A DNA stretch of 64,000 nucleotides from assembly GCA_021778415.1 (NCBI GenBank), contig JAJYCL010000001.1:62001-126000 (forward strand), read 5' to 3'. Positions 13,526 to 21,222 of the stretch are shown here, in pieces. Position numbers and translations under genes: made by a program. The notes beneath the pieces are model-generated. The model did no database searches. It was not told the origin of the DNA and saw nothing but the letters and a program-made list of their open reading frames with translations. The number at the start of each line of letters is the position of its first letter. Positions within the stretch are counted from its first letter, which is position 1. The DNA is from a bacterium. GTDB lineage: Bacteria; Vulcanimicrobiota; Vulcanimicrobiia; Vulcanimicrobiales; Vulcanimicrobiaceae.

Positions 13526-14902
13526 GTGATACAACGCCTGACCGACGCCCTTGGGGCCGACAGCGTCTTACATGCACCGGAAGATCTTGCCGTTTATCGG
13601 TTTGACGGCTACGCGACCGGGGCGACCCCCGGCGTGGTCGTCCTGCCGAGAACAACGCGCGACATCTGTGCGGTGATGAAAGTCGCAAAGGAGTTTGGCG
13701 TTCCCGTTGTCGCACGCGGCGCGGGAACCGGCCTCTGCGGCGGTGCCACGCCCGGTTTGGGCGCCATCGTCGTTTCCTTCGCGCGCATGAATCGCATTCT
13801 CGAACTTGATATCGCTCGCCGCCGCGTGCGCGTCCAGCCCGGCGTCGTCAATCTCGATCTCTCAACCGACGTCGCACGCCATCGCCTTTTTTATGCTCCC
13901 GATCCCGCATCGCAACGGAGTTGCACCATCGGCGGCAATATCGGAACGAATGCCGGCGGACCGCATTGTCTGGCATACGGAACGACGACATCGCATGTCC
14001 TCGGCCTCGAAGTTGTCGACGAACACGGCGAGGTGTTCACGACGCACATCGACGATATCGGCTACGACCTCACCGGTGCACTCGTAGGAGGCGAAGGCAC
14101 GCTGGGCATGGTTTCTTCGGCATGGCTTCGCCTTACGCGCATGCCGCAGAGCGTTCGCGTCTGGCTCGTCGCATTCGGTGATATCGATTCGGCATCGGAG
14201 ACGGTAAGCGCAATCCTTGCTGCGGGCATTGTGCCAACCGCTCTCGAGATGATGGACGCGACGATTATCTCGGCGGTGGAAGCCGTCTACCACGCCGGTT
14301 ACCCAACCGATGCTGCCGCCGTCCTGTTGATTGAAAGTGCGGGATTCGAAGAAGATATGGAACGCTGCCAAACAGATATCGCCCGTATTGCCCGCGATCA
14401 CGGCGCGCTTTCCTGGCATGCAGCATCGTCTCAACGCGAACGTGATGCTCTCTGGTTAGGACGTAAATCCGCCGCCGGTGCGATCGGATCGATGACGCCG
14501 AACTACTACATTCAAGATGTCACCGTCCCGCGAACCAAACTCCCACACGCGCTGCGTGCCGTTGAAGAGGCCGTTCGCGCGAATGGGCTCCGTGTCGGCA
14601 ACGTTTTTCACGCTGGCGACGGAAATCTTCATCCGCTCATCATGTACGACAAACGCAACGCGTACGAAGTCGCCGCCGTCGTCGAAGCCGGAACGCAGAT
14701 TCTTACGACGGCTATTGCCTTAGGTGGAACGATTTCAGGCGAACACGGCATCGGATCGGAGAAACGCGAAACATTGGGACTCGTGTACTCAAGCGATGAT
14801 CTCGATCCCATGTTGCGCTTACGAGATGTCTTTAACGCATCCGGTTTGCTCAATCCCGAAAAAATTTTCCCAAGCGGAGCGCGTTGCGCTGAGGTTCGAT
14901 AG
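13526..14902 (+). CDS. glcD: FAD-linked oxidase, glycolate oxidase subunit GlcD type
   Basis: Flavin subunit oxidising a 2-hydroxyacid such as glycolate or D-lactate. 458 residues from GTG 13526 behind AGGAGG. It has the VAO/PCMH FAD-binding domain (VVARGAGTGLCGGATP, SCTIGGNIGTNAGG, LVGGEGTLG) and the C-terminal FAD-oxidase domain with HAGDGNLHP and SGEHGIGSEK. The stop overlaps the start of glcE. The third subunit, iron-sulfur GlcF, is absent from the expected position downstream. Confidence 0.88.
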   Translation: MIQRLTDALGADSVLHAPEDLAVYRFDGYATGATPGVVVLPRTTRDICAVMKVAKEFGVPVVARGAGTGLCGGATPGLGAIVVSFARMNRILELDIARRRVRVQPGVVNLDLSTDVARHRLFYAPDPASQRSCTIGGNIGTNAGGPHCLAYGTTTSHVLGLEVVDEHGEVFTTHIDDIGYDLTGALVGGEGTLGMVSSAWLRLTRMPQSVRVWLVAFGDIDSASETVSAILAAGIVPTALEMMDATIISAVEAVYHAGYPTDAAAVLLIESAGFEEDMERCQTDIARIARDHGALSWHAASSQRERDALWLGRKSAAGAIGSMTPNYYIQDVTVPRTKLPHALRAVEEAVRANGLRVGNVFHAGDGNLHPLIMYDKRNAYEVAAVVEAGTQILTTAIALGGTISGEHGIGSEKRETLGLVYSSDDLDPMLRLRDVFNASGLLNPEKIFPSGARCAEVR

Positions 14903-16134
14903 TGCCAGACCGTAAACGTTCGCGCGTCGCGCCCACGACCATTACCATGCTCCAGGAGGCGGTGATCTCGGCACGAGATCACAGCTATGCACTTTGCATT
15001 CGCGGTGCCGGAACATTGGACGGAATGGGCGGTCGCGTCACGGCCGATCTTGACATCCATATGACCCACCTCAAAGGCATTGCCGCGTTCGAACCAGGCG
15101 ATCTCACCATCGGCACGTTTGCCGGAACAACGCTCGCCGAGCTTACGGCGGTGCTGCGCGAACACCGACTGATGGCCGTACTCGATGCCCCGCACCCGCA
15201 GCAGGCGACCATCGGCGGAACGCTCGCGGGTGGTTGGCTCGGTCCACGTCGGCATCGGTTTGGGCGTCCGCGCGATGCGGTGATCGGAACGACCGTCGTC
15301 ATGGCCGACGGACGGATCGCAAGCTCCGGCGGCATGGTCGTCAAAAATGTCACCGGGTACGATCTCTCAAAACTGTACATCGGTTCCTTTGGTACGCTCG
15401 GCATTCTCGCCCGCGTGAATTTCAAAGTGCAACCCATCCCGGCGCGCATTCGCGCCATTTCTGCACGATTGCCGGAACATACGCGAGAGCGCGTGATCGA
15501 ACGCATGCAAGGCCTGAGTGGACAGATCAGCGCTGCGCTACTCATCGACGGTTTCCATCGAGAAATCGACGGTGAAGATGGAAGCGACGGACGCCTCGTC
15601 GTCCTTTTGGAAACCTCGGAGATTCTACTGGAACAGGCCACGCGAGATACCCGCGGAGCACTCGGTCAGGCCGGTGTTCCCGAAGCGACGATCGTCGATC
15701 TGGGCCCGATGGATCATCTGCAACGCATCATCGACGCCGGAGTGGCAACGATCGGTGAACGCAGTATCACCTATCGCGTTCTCGGGGATGCCGACGATCA
15801 TGAACGGCGCTCGTCGCAGCTCAGCGCAGACCTGTCGCGCACGGGACTGCGCATGGAGCGCATTGTCGATGCGTGCAATGGGGATTTGTTCGTGCGCCTG
15901 TCCGACCGCGATTCCCGGAGTTTTGCCGGCAAACTCGCCGATTGCGATGAAATCGTGCATCAGCACTTTCCGCGCGCAATCGTCGTCGCGTGCACGAGTC
16001 CGATTCGCGATCAACTCACGATCTGGGGCGAGCATCCCGCGGCAATCGAAAAAATGCATCTGCTCAAATCCGCGTTCGACCCGGACCATCGGCTCAATCC
16101 CGGACGATTCCTTGAAGCCACGACCAATGGTTAA
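14902..16134 (+). CDS. glcE: FAD-binding subunit, glycolate oxidase GlcE type
   Basis: Second flavin-binding subunit, 410 residues from GTG 14902, which shares a base with the glcD stop. The FAD-binding half shows IRGAGTLDGMGG, HPQQATIGGTLAGGWLG, GGMVVKNVTGYDLSKLYIGSFGTLGI; the C-terminal half ends in KSAFDPDHRLNPGR. It probably forms the membrane-peripheral oxidase with GlcD. Its last codons overlap the start of the YtpB-like gene, which takes the place where glcF usually lies. Confidence 0.85.
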   Translation: MPDRKRSRVAPTTITMLQEAVISARDHSYALCIRGAGTLDGMGGRVTADLDIHMTHLKGIAAFEPGDLTIGTFAGTTLAELTAVLREHRLMAVLDAPHPQQATIGGTLAGGWLGPRRHRFGRPRDAVIGTTVVMADGRIASSGGMVVKNVTGYDLSKLYIGSFGTLGILARVNFKVQPIPARIRAISARLPEHTRERVIERMQGLSGQISAALLIDGFHREIDGEDGSDGRLVVLLETSEILLEQATRDTRGALGQAGVPEATIVDLGPMDHLQRIIDAGVATIGERSITYRVLGDADDHERRSSQLSADLSRTGLRMERIVDACNGDLFVRLSDRDSRSFAGKLADCDEIVHQHFPRAIVVACTSPIRDQLTIWGEHPAAIEKMHLLKSAFDPDHRLNPGRFLEATTNG

Positions 16135-17185
16135 CGAAATCGGTCCGGCGGTACGACGTGTCCTGCGATCAAAAGAACGCATCGGCATTCTTCTCGGCGA
16201 TGGCGGAAATACGGCGTGGAATCTTGCTCGGTTTCTCCGCGTGATTGTCCCTTTGGCTCGCCGTGAACTACAAGGAATCGCCGCACGCGCCGCACACATT
16301 CCCGATCCCGACCTGCGTGAACAAGCGCTTGCATCAATTCGCTTCAAAGCGTTTCATGCCGCAGGAGCGTGCATTCATGCAACGTTTCTCAACCGCCACG
16401 ATGCTGAACACTTTGTCCGTATCGTCGTACCGCTCGAATCGATTTACGATTATCTCGATAATCTTTGCGATCGCCATCCGGCTGTTTCAACGGATGCGTA
16501 TCCCGTATTGCATGACGCGATTTGCGACGCGCTGGATCCCAATGCACCGTTGCGCGACTATTACCGTGCCGGGCCAAGCGGCGATGACGGCGGCTACCTT
16601 GCGGATCTTGTGCGGCAAGTGCAGCGCGAACTTGCTCCGTTACATCGTTATTCACGCTTAGCGGTTCACTTTGCACGCGTATCCAAGCTGTACGCTCGCA
16701 TGCAAAGTACCGTTCACCTCCCGAGTTCTTCGCGGGTCGCCGCGGTTGTGGCGTGGTACGAATCCGAATGTGCGTCGTTTCCGGCGCTTGATTGGCACGA
16801 ATTTGCCTGCTCGGCGGGATCCCAATTCCAAGTCTATGCGCCACTGTACGCGGCATTTGCGGCACCCGATGAAATCGATGCGACCTTCGAGGCCTATTTT
16901 CCCTGGCTTAGCGCGCTGCATGTGCTCTTTGATTCATTTATCGATCGCGAGGAAGATGCGGCATCCGGCGATCTCAATTTCGCCGAGGTCTACGCCAATC
17001 CGAAGGCGTTGCGCGAGCGCGCAGCCTGGCTCGCCGATTCGGCACGCCGTCGCTTTACCGCCCTTAGCTTCTCGTCGCGCCATCGCTTCATGCTCAATAC
17101 CATGGCACTCTTCTACCTGTCACACCCGAAGTTGGATAGCCGCGCAAAAGAGGCGACCATGTTACTCAAGGCCATCGCTAGGTAA
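16127..17185 (+). CDS. YtpB/DUF2600-family protein, tetraprenyl-beta-curcumene synthase-like
   Basis: About 352 residues from ATG 16127, overlapping the glcE stop by 8 bases. The sequence matches the DUF2600 pattern: VPLARRELQ, then VVPLESIYDYLDNLCDR (Asp-rich motif DYLDN at residues 108-112) and a second acidic pair in LFDSFIDREED. In Bacillus this family (YtpB) cyclises C35 tetraprenyl diphosphate to tetraprenyl-beta-curcumene, an unusual large-terpene synthase. The fold assignment is fairly sure; the substrate here is unknown. No prenyl diphosphate synthase is nearby. A role in modifying a menaquinone-like or membrane terpenoid is only a guess. Confidence 0.72.
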   Translation: MVNEIGPAVRRVLRSKERIGILLGDGGNTAWNLARFLRVIVPLARRELQGIAARAAHIPDPDLREQALASIRFKAFHAAGACIHATFLNRHDAEHFVRIVVPLESIYDYLDNLCDRHPAVSTDAYPVLHDAICDALDPNAPLRDYYRAGPSGDDGGYLADLVRQVQRELAPLHRYSRLAVHFARVSKLYARMQSTVHLPSSSRVAAVVAWYESECASFPALDWHEFACSAGSQFQVYAPLYAAFAAPDEIDATFEAYFPWLSALHVLFDSFIDREEDAASGDLNFAEVYANPKALRERAAWLADSARRRFTALSFSSRHRFMLNTMALFYLSHPKLDSRAKEATMLLKAIAR

Positions 17186-17203: not shown

Positions 17204-19060
17204 GTGAAAACAGCGGTGAATCGACGATTCGCTCTTGCACTTGCGTCCTCGCTGGTGCTTGGTGCCGGGGTGGCAGCAGCCGCCGGCCCCGATGAAGGCC
17301 TCCTCATCAACATTCCCACGGCATCCGGCGCCATGATCGATACCGTTCGTATCGATCGCGATGTCCATCGCCCGGGGAGCCCCGGCGATCATCTGCTCGC
17401 CCTATGGATGCAGCACCAACTTCAATCCTATGGATTCCGCGTTCACCAAGAAGCCTTTCGAGCCCGAACCACGGCGCCGAAACGCTTGGTCCTCGCTCTC
17501 CTGACCTCCGCAAAAAAACCGGAGGGATTCACCTTACGCGAAGGACCTATCGCAAACGACCCACTCGGCTATCGCGACGATGCCGGCCTTCCCTTTCTCG
17601 ATGGCTCCGGCGACGGCAACGTTACCGCATCGATGGTCTATGCCAATCATGGGCTCACTGCCGATTACGCCTCCCTGCAAACGCGAGGCGTGCGCATTTC
17701 CGGGCGCATCGTCTTAATTCGTGATGGCCTCGAACCCCGTGGCCAACTCGGCCGTCGCGCGCAGAAGTATGGCGCAGCCGGAATTCTTTTCTACAGCGAT
17801 CCGGCGGATCGCGGTACCGGGCGCGGACAAACCTATCCCGATGGCCCGTGGCAGCCGCGCGATGTCGTGCGCCGCGGCTCTCTCGGCTATCCGGATCTCC
17901 GCATACCGGCGCTGCCGATTTCCGCCGCAAATGCGCAACAACTGCTCAACGATATGCGCGGGCTTGCAGCTCCGGCAAACTGGATCGGCGGATTAGAGGC
18001 TCCCTATACGATCGGCCTGACACAGCACAAGGTGCATCTCCAAGTGGTTCTTGCCCGCTATTTCACGACGATGTGGAACACCGTTGCCACGCTTCGCGGC
18101 ACGCATCCGGATTCGCGCGTTATTCTCGGCGCCCATCGTGATGCGTGGGTCACCGGTGCAACGGCCAATGGCTCCGGCATCTCGATCATCATGGAAGTCG
18201 CCCGCGCTCTCGGCTATCTTCATGCTACGGGTTGGCAACCGCGACGCTCGATCACGATCATCGGCTTTGACGGAGAGACCGTTGGTACCGTCGGCAGTTC
18301 GTGGTACGTCTACGATCACCAACGTGAACTCGAACATGGAGCCGTCGCCTATCTTAATGCCGATACGGCGACAACCGGCACTACGCTGACGGGAAATGCT
18401 GTTGCGGCCTTATTGCCCAGTGCATTTTCAGCACTGCAAAAAATCCCCGATCCCGCGAAATCAACGAGTATGCTCAGCGAGCGTCCGGGGGCGAACCTGT
18501 TCGCCCCACCGGCTGGAGGAAGCGATTTCGAACCGTTTCTCTACAACCTTGGTATTCCAACGATGCAGTTTGCTTTTTCAGGCCCGTTCGGCGTCGACAA
18601 CTCATCGTACGACGATCTCAACTATGCCGAGCGCATCGCCGATCCGTCCTTTGCGAACCACCGCGCCTTGGCCCAGCTCTACGCCCTCCTTGCCGTCCGC
18701 CTCGCGCAAGCCTCTCGCGTTCCGTATTCGTTCAGTTCCTACGTGGGAGCCCTTCGTCTAGGACTCATGCGAGCAACCCGGGGCCATGGATCGCTCATCT
18801 CGGCGACCTCACCCGTCAACGCGGCAATCTCTCGCTTTGCCCAAGCAGCAGCCAGATACGATCGCCGCCCGTTAAGCGACCAGCAGTCGCTTGACGCCGT
18901 TCATATCCTCAATCGCCTCCTCTATGGGCGTCAAGGCTATGCATCCGTCGCCTTCCCAGCCCTCGCCAAAGCGCTCGAGACCGGAAACGGCGCAACGGTC
19001 GGCTCCGTGGCGATGCAGACCGCTCGGCAACTCGATGCGGTCAGTACGTTGTTACGCTAA
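17204..19060 (+). CDS. M28B-family (glutamate carboxypeptidase II-like) secreted protein, zinc site incomplete
   Basis: 618 residues from GTG 17204 with a signal peptide (to about residue 27), a PA insert domain (RGVRISGRIVLIRDG, KYGAAGILFYSDP), an M28 core and a C-terminal TFR-dimerisation-like helical domain. Aligned to human GCPII, the zinc ligands His377 and Asp453 are kept (His311, Asp387), as is catalytic Glu424 (Glu358). Asp387 becomes Ala321, Glu425 becomes Thr359 and His553 becomes Asn466. Three of five ligands are therefore missing, as in transferrin receptors. The protein may bind rather than cleave. It lies four bases before pepP. Confidence 0.8.
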   Translation: MKTAVNRRFALALASSLVLGAGVAAAAGPDEGLLINIPTASGAMIDTVRIDRDVHRPGSPGDHLLALWMQHQLQSYGFRVHQEAFRARTTAPKRLVLALLTSAKKPEGFTLREGPIANDPLGYRDDAGLPFLDGSGDGNVTASMVYANHGLTADYASLQTRGVRISGRIVLIRDGLEPRGQLGRRAQKYGAAGILFYSDPADRGTGRGQTYPDGPWQPRDVVRRGSLGYPDLRIPALPISAANAQQLLNDMRGLAAPANWIGGLEAPYTIGLTQHKVHLQVVLARYFTTMWNTVATLRGTHPDSRVILGAHRDAWVTGATANGSGISIIMEVARALGYLHATGWQPRRSITIIGFDGETVGTVGSSWYVYDHQRELEHGAVAYLNADTATTGTTLTGNAVAALLPSAFSALQKIPDPAKSTSMLSERPGANLFAPPAGGSDFEPFLYNLGIPTMQFAFSGPFGVDNSSYDDLNYAERIADPSFANHRALAQLYALLAVRLAQASRVPYSFSSYVGALRLGLMRATRGHGSLISATSPVNAAISRFAQAAARYDRRPLSDQQSLDAVHILNRLLYGRQGYASVAFPALAKALETGNGATVGSVAMQTARQLDAVSTLLR

Positions 19061-19063
19061 TCG

Positions 19064-20380
19064 ATGTCTGAAATATCCCTCGAAGAATTTCGCTCACGTC
19101 GAGCGCGTGCGTTTGCAGCCCTCGACGGAGGTGCCGCAATCGTTCCATCGGCGACGGTGTTGCTACGCAACGGCGACAGTGATTATCCGTTCCGACAAAA
19201 TTCCGATTTTCTCTATCTCACCGGATTTACCGAGCCCGATGCCGTTCTCGTCTTGCTTGGCGATCACCGAAGCGTCCTATTTATGCGCCCGAAAGATCGA
19301 GCGTCAGAAGTATGGACCGGGCATCGTTTGGGTTTGGATGACGCTCCGGCAACGCTCGGCGTCGATATCGCGCTGGACATTGCGACCTTCGAAGAAAAAC
19401 TCCCCGAATTGCTCGTTGGCTGCGAGCACCTCTCCTACGATTTCGGCAATGATGAAGCACGAGATCGCAGCATTTTTGCTGCGATTCGCGCAGCGCGCGG
19501 ATTGACCCGGCGCAAAGGAGTTGCCCCGCACACGCTTCATGGATTGAATACGTGGATCGCTGAGTTACGACGAATAAAATCTCCGGCAGAGATCGAACGT
19601 ATGCGCACGGCAGCCGCGATCACACGTCGCGGTCATATTGCGGCAATGCAGGCGGTGACGCCGGGCATGCATGAATACGATCTTCAAGCGATCCTGGAGT
19701 ACGAATATCGACGTGCCGGAGCGCAAGGAATCGCCTATGAATCGATTGTTGCAACAGGGGCGAACGCGACGGTTTTGCACTACGTTGAAAACCGACATCG
19801 TATCGCCGATGGCGACTTGGTACTTATCGACAGCGGCGCAGAATATCATGGCTATGCCGCAGATGTCACGCGAACATTTCCCGCGAACGGCCGCTTCACG
19901 TCCGAGCAACGCGCACTCTATGAGATCGTACTGCAAGCCATGAACGATGCATTTGCGCACGTGCGACCGGGAGTCGCTCGAACGGCGTATCATGATCGCG
20001 CCGTCGCGACGATCACGCAAGGGCTCCTGGATCTCGGGATTTTGCACGGCTCCTTCGACGAAGCGATCGAAACGCAAGCCTACCAAGAATACTACATGCA
20101 CGGCACCGGCCACTGGCTTGGCCTCGACGTTCATGATGCCGGTCGGTATCGCGATCATGACGACACGCCGACGCGTTTAGAACCCGGTATGGCATTGACC
20201 GTCGAGCCCGGAATCTACGTGCGACATGACGCTCCCTGCGATCCACGTTTTCACGGCATCGGCATTCGTATCGAAGACGATCTTCTCGTCACCGGCGACG
20301 GACACGAAAATCTCACCGCATCGATTCCAACATCGATCGACGATATTAGCGCCATTATGCGCGAAAAAGTCTCCGCATGA
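19064..20380 (+). CDS. pepP: Xaa-Pro aminopeptidase (M24B)
   Basis: Cytoplasmic aminopeptidase P releasing residues N-terminal to proline. 438 residues with the creatinase-like N-domain (RQNSDFLYLTGF, VLFMRPKD) and a pita-bread M24 domain carrying the dinuclear metal ligands in LIDSGAEYHGYAADVTRTFP, HGTGHWLGLDVHD, TVEPGIY and GIRIEDD. All ligands look present. Only three bases separate it from the preceding M28B gene, and its stop overlaps the next start (ATGA). Confidence 0.93.
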   Translation: MSEISLEEFRSRRARAFAALDGGAAIVPSATVLLRNGDSDYPFRQNSDFLYLTGFTEPDAVLVLLGDHRSVLFMRPKDRASEVWTGHRLGLDDAPATLGVDIALDIATFEEKLPELLVGCEHLSYDFGNDEARDRSIFAAIRAARGLTRRKGVAPHTLHGLNTWIAELRRIKSPAEIERMRTAAAITRRGHIAAMQAVTPGMHEYDLQAILEYEYRRAGAQGIAYESIVATGANATVLHYVENRHRIADGDLVLIDSGAEYHGYAADVTRTFPANGRFTSEQRALYEIVLQAMNDAFAHVRPGVARTAYHDRAVATITQGLLDLGILHGSFDEAIETQAYQEYYMHGTGHWLGLDVHDAGRYRDHDDTPTRLEPGMALTVEPGIYVRHDAPCDPRFHGIGIRIEDDLLVTGDGHENLTASIPTSIDDISAIMREKVSA

Positions 20381-21222
20381 AGATCGGTATTATCGGCGCA
20401 TCGGGGTTCATCGGCAAACATCTCGCCGCGGCAGTAACGGCGCGCGGCGATACGGTCGTCCATGCATCCATCCGCGGGGATCTGCGGACGGCCGCGCAAG
20501 CGGTGCAGGGGTGCGACGTCGTTGTGAATCTGGCCGGAGAATCCGTCGCCCAGCGTTGGACGCCGGACGTAAAGCAGCGGATTGCCGATTCGCGCATCAC
20601 GGCCGCTCGCGGGCTCATTGCCGCCTTAAGCGAGTTCGAACGCAAACCGCGACGCTATATTAGCGCGTCGGCAGTCGGCTATTACGGGCCGTCCGTCGAC
20701 GCGACATTCACCGAAGCGAGCCCCGTCGGCAAAGATTTCCTCGCCGGAGTGTGTTTGGAATGGGAGACGGAAGCCTATAAAGCCACGCAAGCCGGGATGG
20801 CCGTTGCGTTGCTGCGCACCGGGCTCGTCCTCGGAACCGATGGCGGCGCGCTGCCGCAACTCCTTACGCCGTTTCGTCTTGGGCTAGGCGGCATCGTCGG
20901 CTCGGGGCAACAATGGACCTCGTGGATTCATATCGACGACATTGTCGGGCTCTATCTCCTGGCCATCGATGGGGCGGACGGCATTTTTAACGCGACGGCG
21001 CCGAATCCGGTTCGTAATCGTGATTTCACCACTGCACTCGCGCATGCGTTGCATCGCCCCGCGATAATACCGGTTCCGGCATTGGCGATGCATCTGCTCT
21101 TTGGCGAAGGAGCGACCATCGTACTCGATGGCCAACGCGTACTTCCCGCGCGCGCACAACAGATCGGGTACCGCTTCCGCCATGAGACGATCGACTCGGC
21201 GTTGACGGCATTAGTGAGCTAG
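20377..21222 (+). CDS. TIGR01777-family NAD(P)-dependent sugar-epimerase-like protein
   Basis: 281 residues of the extended SDR type. IGASGFIGKHL is the nucleotide-binding motif, VVNLAGESV and SASAVGYYG are signatures of the TIGR01777 (YfcH/SDR39U1) family, and the C-terminus ends in the DUF1731-like VPVPALAMHLLFGEGATIVLDGQRVLP. Cellular role uncertain; some relatives affect division or plastid functions. ATGA overlap with pepP. The stop converges with and overlaps the next gene on the minus strand by 12 bases. Confidence 0.85.
   Translation: MKIGIIGASGFIGKHLAAAVTARGDTVVHASIRGDLRTAAQAVQGCDVVVNLAGESVAQRWTPDVKQRIADSRITAARGLIAALSEFERKPRRYISASAVGYYGPSVDATFTEASPVGKDFLAGVCLEWETEAYKATQAGMAVALLRTGLVLGTDGGALPQLLTPFRLGLGGIVGSGQQWTSWIHIDDIVGLYLLAIDGADGIFNATAPNPVRNRDFTTALAHALHRPAIIPVPALAMHLLFGEGATIVLDGQRVLPARAQQIGYRFRHETIDSALTALVS

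Follow-up and report, generated by a model that had tools for sequence, protein, structure and literature searches.

The window, a 64,000-nucleotide stretch of bacterial DNA, carries on its plus strand a glcD-like FAD-linked oxidase gene with FAD_binding_4 and FAD-oxidase_C domains (13526–14902; start codon uncertain), a glcE-like gene for a FAD-binding subunit (14902–16134), the gene of a class IB (DUF2600/YtpB-like) large-terpene synthase (16127–17185), whose start is overlapped by glcE over 8 nt, an M28 peptidase with a PA domain (17204–19060), an M24 peptidase of the aminopeptidase P-like type (19064–20380), and an NAD-dependent epimerase with Epimerase and DUF1731 domains (20377–21222). 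The synthase reading frame is full length; it begins with an ATG at 16127, its stop codon ends at 17185, and it encodes 352 amino acids. The GlcD and GlcE proteins match the GlcD and GlcE models at scores below the NCBI equivalog cut-offs, and their best-matching models are those of glycolate oxidase. No glcF accompanies the two genes (13526–16134), which stand side by side; the genome encodes a glcF-like iron-sulphur protein on another contig (L098, 726–2042).

The assignment to the DUF2600/YtpB family, made in a first-pass annotation of this DNA, is borne out by the Pfam profile PF10776 (DUF2600), which matches residues 42–341 of the synthase over profile positions 1–302 of 328 (E 2e-82) and scores 277 bits, the cut-off being 25 bits. 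In a phmmer search, the sole solved-structure sequence matched by the protein was BalTS (5yo8, 6loo and 6lop; E 9e-49, residues 36–339), whose entries carry the name tetraprenyl-beta-curcumene synthase; none of the NCBIfam models matched. An AlphaFold2 model built on a 43-row alignment of relatives (pLDDT 95.6, pTM 0.94) has a class I alpha-helical fold that is closest to BalTS: Foldseek returned E-values below 0.001 solely for class IB entries (TM 0.84–0.86), and VIA-align gave Z-scores of 41.8 to 6loo and 40.7 to 5yo8, the next structure being a diterpene synthase at 19.7. The first-pass annotation had left room for a protein lacking the class I fold or the Asp-rich motifs; the Foldseek and VIA-align results decide this in favor of the family. 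The synthase is a new member of the known class IB (DUF2600) family, and both its fold and its family are secure; the Bacillus enzymes to which it is related make terpene hydrocarbons out of isoprenoid chains of 25 to 35 carbons. An N-terminal helical extension of approximately 24 residues (16127–16198) precedes the part that aligns with BalTS, since the model aligns to 6loo from residue 25; its strong amphipathic character (the hydrophobic moment reaches 0.70) goes with a possible contact with the membrane.

Class IB enzymes are marked by the motif pair DYLDNLxD and DY(F,L,W)IDxxED (PMC7839719), and both acidic motifs that had been claimed for the window's synthase are present, with all six motif aspartates. 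The first, DYLDNLCD (residues 108–115; 16448–16471; DYLDNLCDR when read through residue 116), matches the published form exactly; the second, DSFIDREED (residues 269–277; 16931–16957), keeps every acidic position and has Ser270 instead of the published Tyr. Among 43 relatives, D108, D111 and D115 are invariant, and D269, D273, E276 and D277 are at least 90% conserved. In the alignment with BalTS, DYLDNLCD lies opposite an identical motif and DSFIDREED opposite DYFIDQEED, a correspondence that would place both motifs in the pocket. The second position of motif 2 is Tyr in all 31 Bacillota homologs examined, and also in the Eremiobacterota family f3 and in a Vulcanimicrobium-like clade; in most of the clade that contains the window's synthase it is Ser, Ala or Asp. 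The Tyr-to-Ser change could alter or weaken catalysis. One Eremiobacterota genome (G107; loci L064 and L065) carries two class IB copies, with Ala at this position in one and Ser in the other.

The source genome is that of a soil bacterium, and the nearest named loci belong to Candidatus Eremiobacterota, in agreement with the earlier view that the host is not a member of the Firmicutes. The search covered 388 related genomes, 149 from Eremiobacterota and 239 from other phyla. The class IB family occurs in 66 of the 149 Eremiobacterota genomes (approximately 44%) and in 30 of 70 genera; the 239 other genomes, a thin sample of those phyla, yielded a single match above the cut-off, in genome G200, which is itself assigned to Bacillota because an Anoxybacillus protein nests among the sequences of its phylum. 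Within the phylum of G200, the family was found in 77 of 199 genomes. In the protein tree, a single branch with 100/100 support splits 45 Eremiobacterota proteins from 31 of Bacillota, and inside Eremiobacterota the families f3 and f1 separate from each other in accordance with their taxonomy. Mapped onto a tree built from six linked genes, the presence and absence of the synthase requires 6 changes in 49 genomes, compared to 11.7 in shuffles. The small number of changes on the gene tree and the split between the clades fit vertical inheritance with repeated loss; the synthase looks like an old gene in Eremiobacterota that has been inherited mainly vertically and lost several times. The description of the gene as standing outside its usual setting, with its suggestion of an odd or transferred gene, gives way to that of an old, mostly vertical gene of its class. 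Horizontal acquisition from Firmicutes is unsupported, with Eremiobacterota and Bacillota on opposite sides of the fully supported branch; an ancient transfer between the two lineages, in either direction, is possible. The window's gene is an unremarkable representative of a rare class of enzymes, in a host lineage that is unexpected but long-established.

A scan of viral contigs with the family alignment found no relative, and a plasmid search found matches limited to an Anoxybacillus gene and a truncated piece in Calothrix. The former (L095) is part of an alpha/beta hydrolase-ytpB pair on the 258-kb Anoxybacillus amylolyticus plasmid NZ_CP015439.1, where it is adjoined by genes for a methyltransferase, YtzC and leuS that are usually chromosomal. 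The latter (L096, 4001–4336), on a plasmid of Calothrix sp. NIES-4101, is annotated as hypothetical and lies near a phage integrase; it keeps DYLDNLCD, and the second motif was not found in this locus. This truncated plasmid copy indicates that rare occurrences exist in other phyla.

For the potential substrates, the isoprenoid genes of the source genome and its phylum provide context. The source genome contains two PF00348 trans-prenyl diphosphate synthases. One of these (on contig C52) adjoins a ubiE/menG-like methyltransferase and a cytochrome bc region; its best matches are octaprenyl (C40), decaprenyl, hexaprenyl and HepT-type enzymes, and it resembles C30–C50 synthases. The other matches GGPP/FPP synthases; the carotenoid-like cluster to which it belongs also holds a single SQS_PSY (phytoene-synthase-like) gene and a pair of crtI-family desaturases. 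The first-pass annotation had pointed to heptaprenyl diphosphate synthase and squalene-hopene cyclase as the partners to look for in the genome; HepS (PF07307) is absent from all 149 Eremiobacterota genomes in a search that detected the B. subtilis positive control, and no full-length squalene-hopene cyclase (SHC) was found in the source genome, which is 95.6% complete, so that a cyclase could lie in the missing part. The sole SHC-type match there is a 463-aa protein with a partial, 38-bit match to SQHop_cyclase_C. This protein (L077, 8702–10093; 68.7–70.1 kb on contig C32 of the source genome) reads DLDT where a DxDD motif is expected; among solved structures it is closest to a 361-aa chain that bears the name squalene-hopene cyclase (8pak). 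It adjoins two tandem phytanoyl-dioxygenase-like proteins, and the same contig carries a 2310-aa open reading frame (L077, 9979–16911) that is rich in LamG-like concanavalin repeats and has a PQQ-like stretch. Several near-complete genomes (for example G035, G055, G056, G057, G084, G086, G088 and G097) keep the synthase without SQS_PSY or a full-length SHC match, so that the substrate in these genomes must come straight from prenyl diphosphate synthases.

Taken together, the gene probably encodes an active class IB synthase that converts a quinone-chain prenyl diphosphate of approximately C35, made without HepS, to an acyclic or monocyclic hydrocarbon, perhaps the final lipid. The family assignment, the class I fold, both motifs and the conservation within a deep clade were computed; the chain length, the product and the function are inferred from the family and from the genome. 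As in the family generally, the motif aspartates would hold Mg2+ and the diphosphate group of a long all-trans polyprenyl diphosphate; ionisation of this substrate would give an allylic cation, and the hydrocarbon released would be either acyclic (beta-prene) or monocyclic (curcumene-type). Based on the genome, the most likely substrate would be the menaquinone-chain prenyl diphosphate of approximately C35, supplied by the synthase beside ubiE/menG and tapped directly without HepS. Mg2+-dependent conversion of C20–C35 prenyl diphosphates is the activity predicted for a member of this family; as the sequence does not fix the chain length of the substrate, C20 or C40–C45 is possible, and an FPP/GGPP-type synthase could be an alternative source. 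For Vulcanimicrobium alpinus, a cultured species of the same phylum that carries the gene if G118 is its genome, Table 1 of PMC9758169 lists MK-7 as the quinone but the text names MK-9, so that the quinone data published for the phylum contradict one another and the chain may have either length. The cyclic product proposed in the first-pass annotation cannot be assumed; since the deposited entry of the solved homolog names it a beta-C25/C30/C35-prene synthase, acyclic and cyclic products are equally plausible. With no full-length squalene-hopene cyclase found in the source genome, an SqhC-like enzyme probably does not act on the product, which may already be the end lipid of the membrane or surface. 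In a bolder version, put forward tentatively and with some doubt, the deep, independent Eremiobacterota branch would turn menaquinone-chain diphosphate into an end-product terpene without HepS or SqhC, and the Ser or Ala in motif 2 would change the product or the chain length.

A tetraprenyl-beta-curcumene synthase in the strict sense of YtpB, which takes C35 heptaprenyl diphosphate to a monocyclic curcumene that a squalene-hopene-type cyclase then converts to a polycyclic C35 terpene, would share the Pfam family and the fold of the window's protein, and the source genome offers candidate partners in the 463-aa protein with its partial cyclase match and in the long-chain prenyl synthase, which also matches the HepT model. 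This role appears unlikely given the phylum-wide absence of HepS and the lack of a full-length SHC match in the source genome; moreover, the presence of the synthase and that of SHC change independently on the tree, SHC shares a contig with two SQS_PSY genes in several relatives (G110:C291, G082:C10), as in the squalene/hopene pathway, and the 463-aa protein sits in a separate cluster with its two dioxygenase-like neighbors. It is quite unlikely that the enzyme uses a shorter substrate (C15–C25) supplied by the FPP/GGPP-type synthase in the carotenoid-like cluster; such a synthase is present in the source genome, and the deposition of the solved relative as a C25/C30/C35-prene synthase indicates a promiscuous class, but the chains described for class IB enzymes are long (PMC7839719), and the synthase gene is unlinked to the carotenoid-like cluster. 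That the synthase replaces hopanoids where squalene-hopene cyclase is missing is improbable: among near-complete f1 genomes both were lost in only 2 of 57 (p 0.003, uncorrected for kinship), yet a tree-based paired test shows no association, and over the whole class the association vanishes (p 0.22). Hopanoid replacement was rejected, as the association in f1 genome counts is gone on the tree.

The common gene order in family f1 is queD-queE-mqnB-like-mqnD-namZ-(pilZ)-glcD-glcE-[synthase]-[M28]-[M24]-epimerase...trxB; the M28 gene occupies a variable slot between glcE and the epimerase, the M24 gene is patchy in it, and in genomes that lack the synthase (G042, G050, G051, G101 and G105, among others) glcE is followed immediately by the epimerase, with similar spacing. 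In most of the loci measured, the synthase gene starts no more than 17 nt before or after the glcE stop. In family f3, the synthase gene adjoins RapZ, CofD-like and glycerate kinase genes, with an iron-dependent repressor in some loci; no terpene gene adjoins the synthase in any locus examined, and in the window no lipid-biosynthesis gene adjoins it. Of the translational coupling to glcDE that had been noted previously, the 8-nt overlap and the conservation of the coupling in f1 stand, in a slot that sits in a block of housekeeping genes; a functional reading of it is unsupported, as glcDE stays where the synthase is missing. Evidence for a pathway shared by glcDE and the synthase was not found, and the link is positional as far as it can be tested. 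It is therefore highly improbable that the FAD-linked oxidase pair oxidises the terpene and that the three genes form one pathway, even with the close adjacency of glcE and synthase in most family members examined, the retention of glcD-glcE-synthase in genome G035 within a different surrounding block, and the position of glcF on another contig than glcDE: synthase-less genomes keep glcDE with the next gene directly after glcE, f3 places the synthase elsewhere, glycolate oxidase models give the best matches to GlcD and GlcE, and the genome has a glcF-like gene at another site. The functional link was rejected on account of the synthase-less genomes and the f3 placement.

To our knowledge, class IB enzymes have so far been characterised from Bacillus and its relatives only. 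A literature search of partial coverage returned no paper naming both curcumene and Eremiobacterota, and mentions of DUF2600 within that coverage were limited to an unrelated context. The Eremiobacterota genes represent a second, old reservoir of class IB enzymes, in a Gram-negative phylum; lacking the usual partners and carrying a natural motif change, these enzymes offer a handle on chain length and cyclisation. If the product of the active class IB synthase proposed here is a bulk lipid, it would be a possible biomarker for Eremiobacterota.

Among known systems, BalTS of Bacillus alcalophilus (5yo8, 6loo, 6lop) resembles the window's synthase in its full-length homology (E 9e-49), in its fold (Z 41.8, rmsd 1.9 Å over 323 residues), in its identical motif 1, and in a motif 2 that has all acidic residues in common; the two differ in sequence (approximately 29% identity in the structural alignment), in the Ser for Tyr in motif 2, in the N-terminal helical extension before the aligned part, and in phylum and gene neighbors. 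YtpB of Bacillus subtilis likewise has the DUF2600 domain in common with the window's protein. The B. subtilis pathway uses heptaprenyl diphosphate supplied by HepS/HepT; YtpB turns it into tetraprenyl curcumene, from which SqhC makes sporulene, and tetraprenyl curcumene itself renders the spores hydrophobic when glycans are missing (PMC11708026). In contrast, HepS is absent here and a full-length SHC was not found, and whereas the gene follows an alpha/beta hydrolase in Bacillaceae (Anoxybacillus), the window's synthase gene follows glcE. Canonical class I terpene synthases and trans-prenyl diphosphate synthases share the overall alpha-helical fold (Z up to 19.7), but the window's synthase has no significant sequence match outside class IB, and the class IB motif pair takes the place of DDxxD and NSE/DTE.
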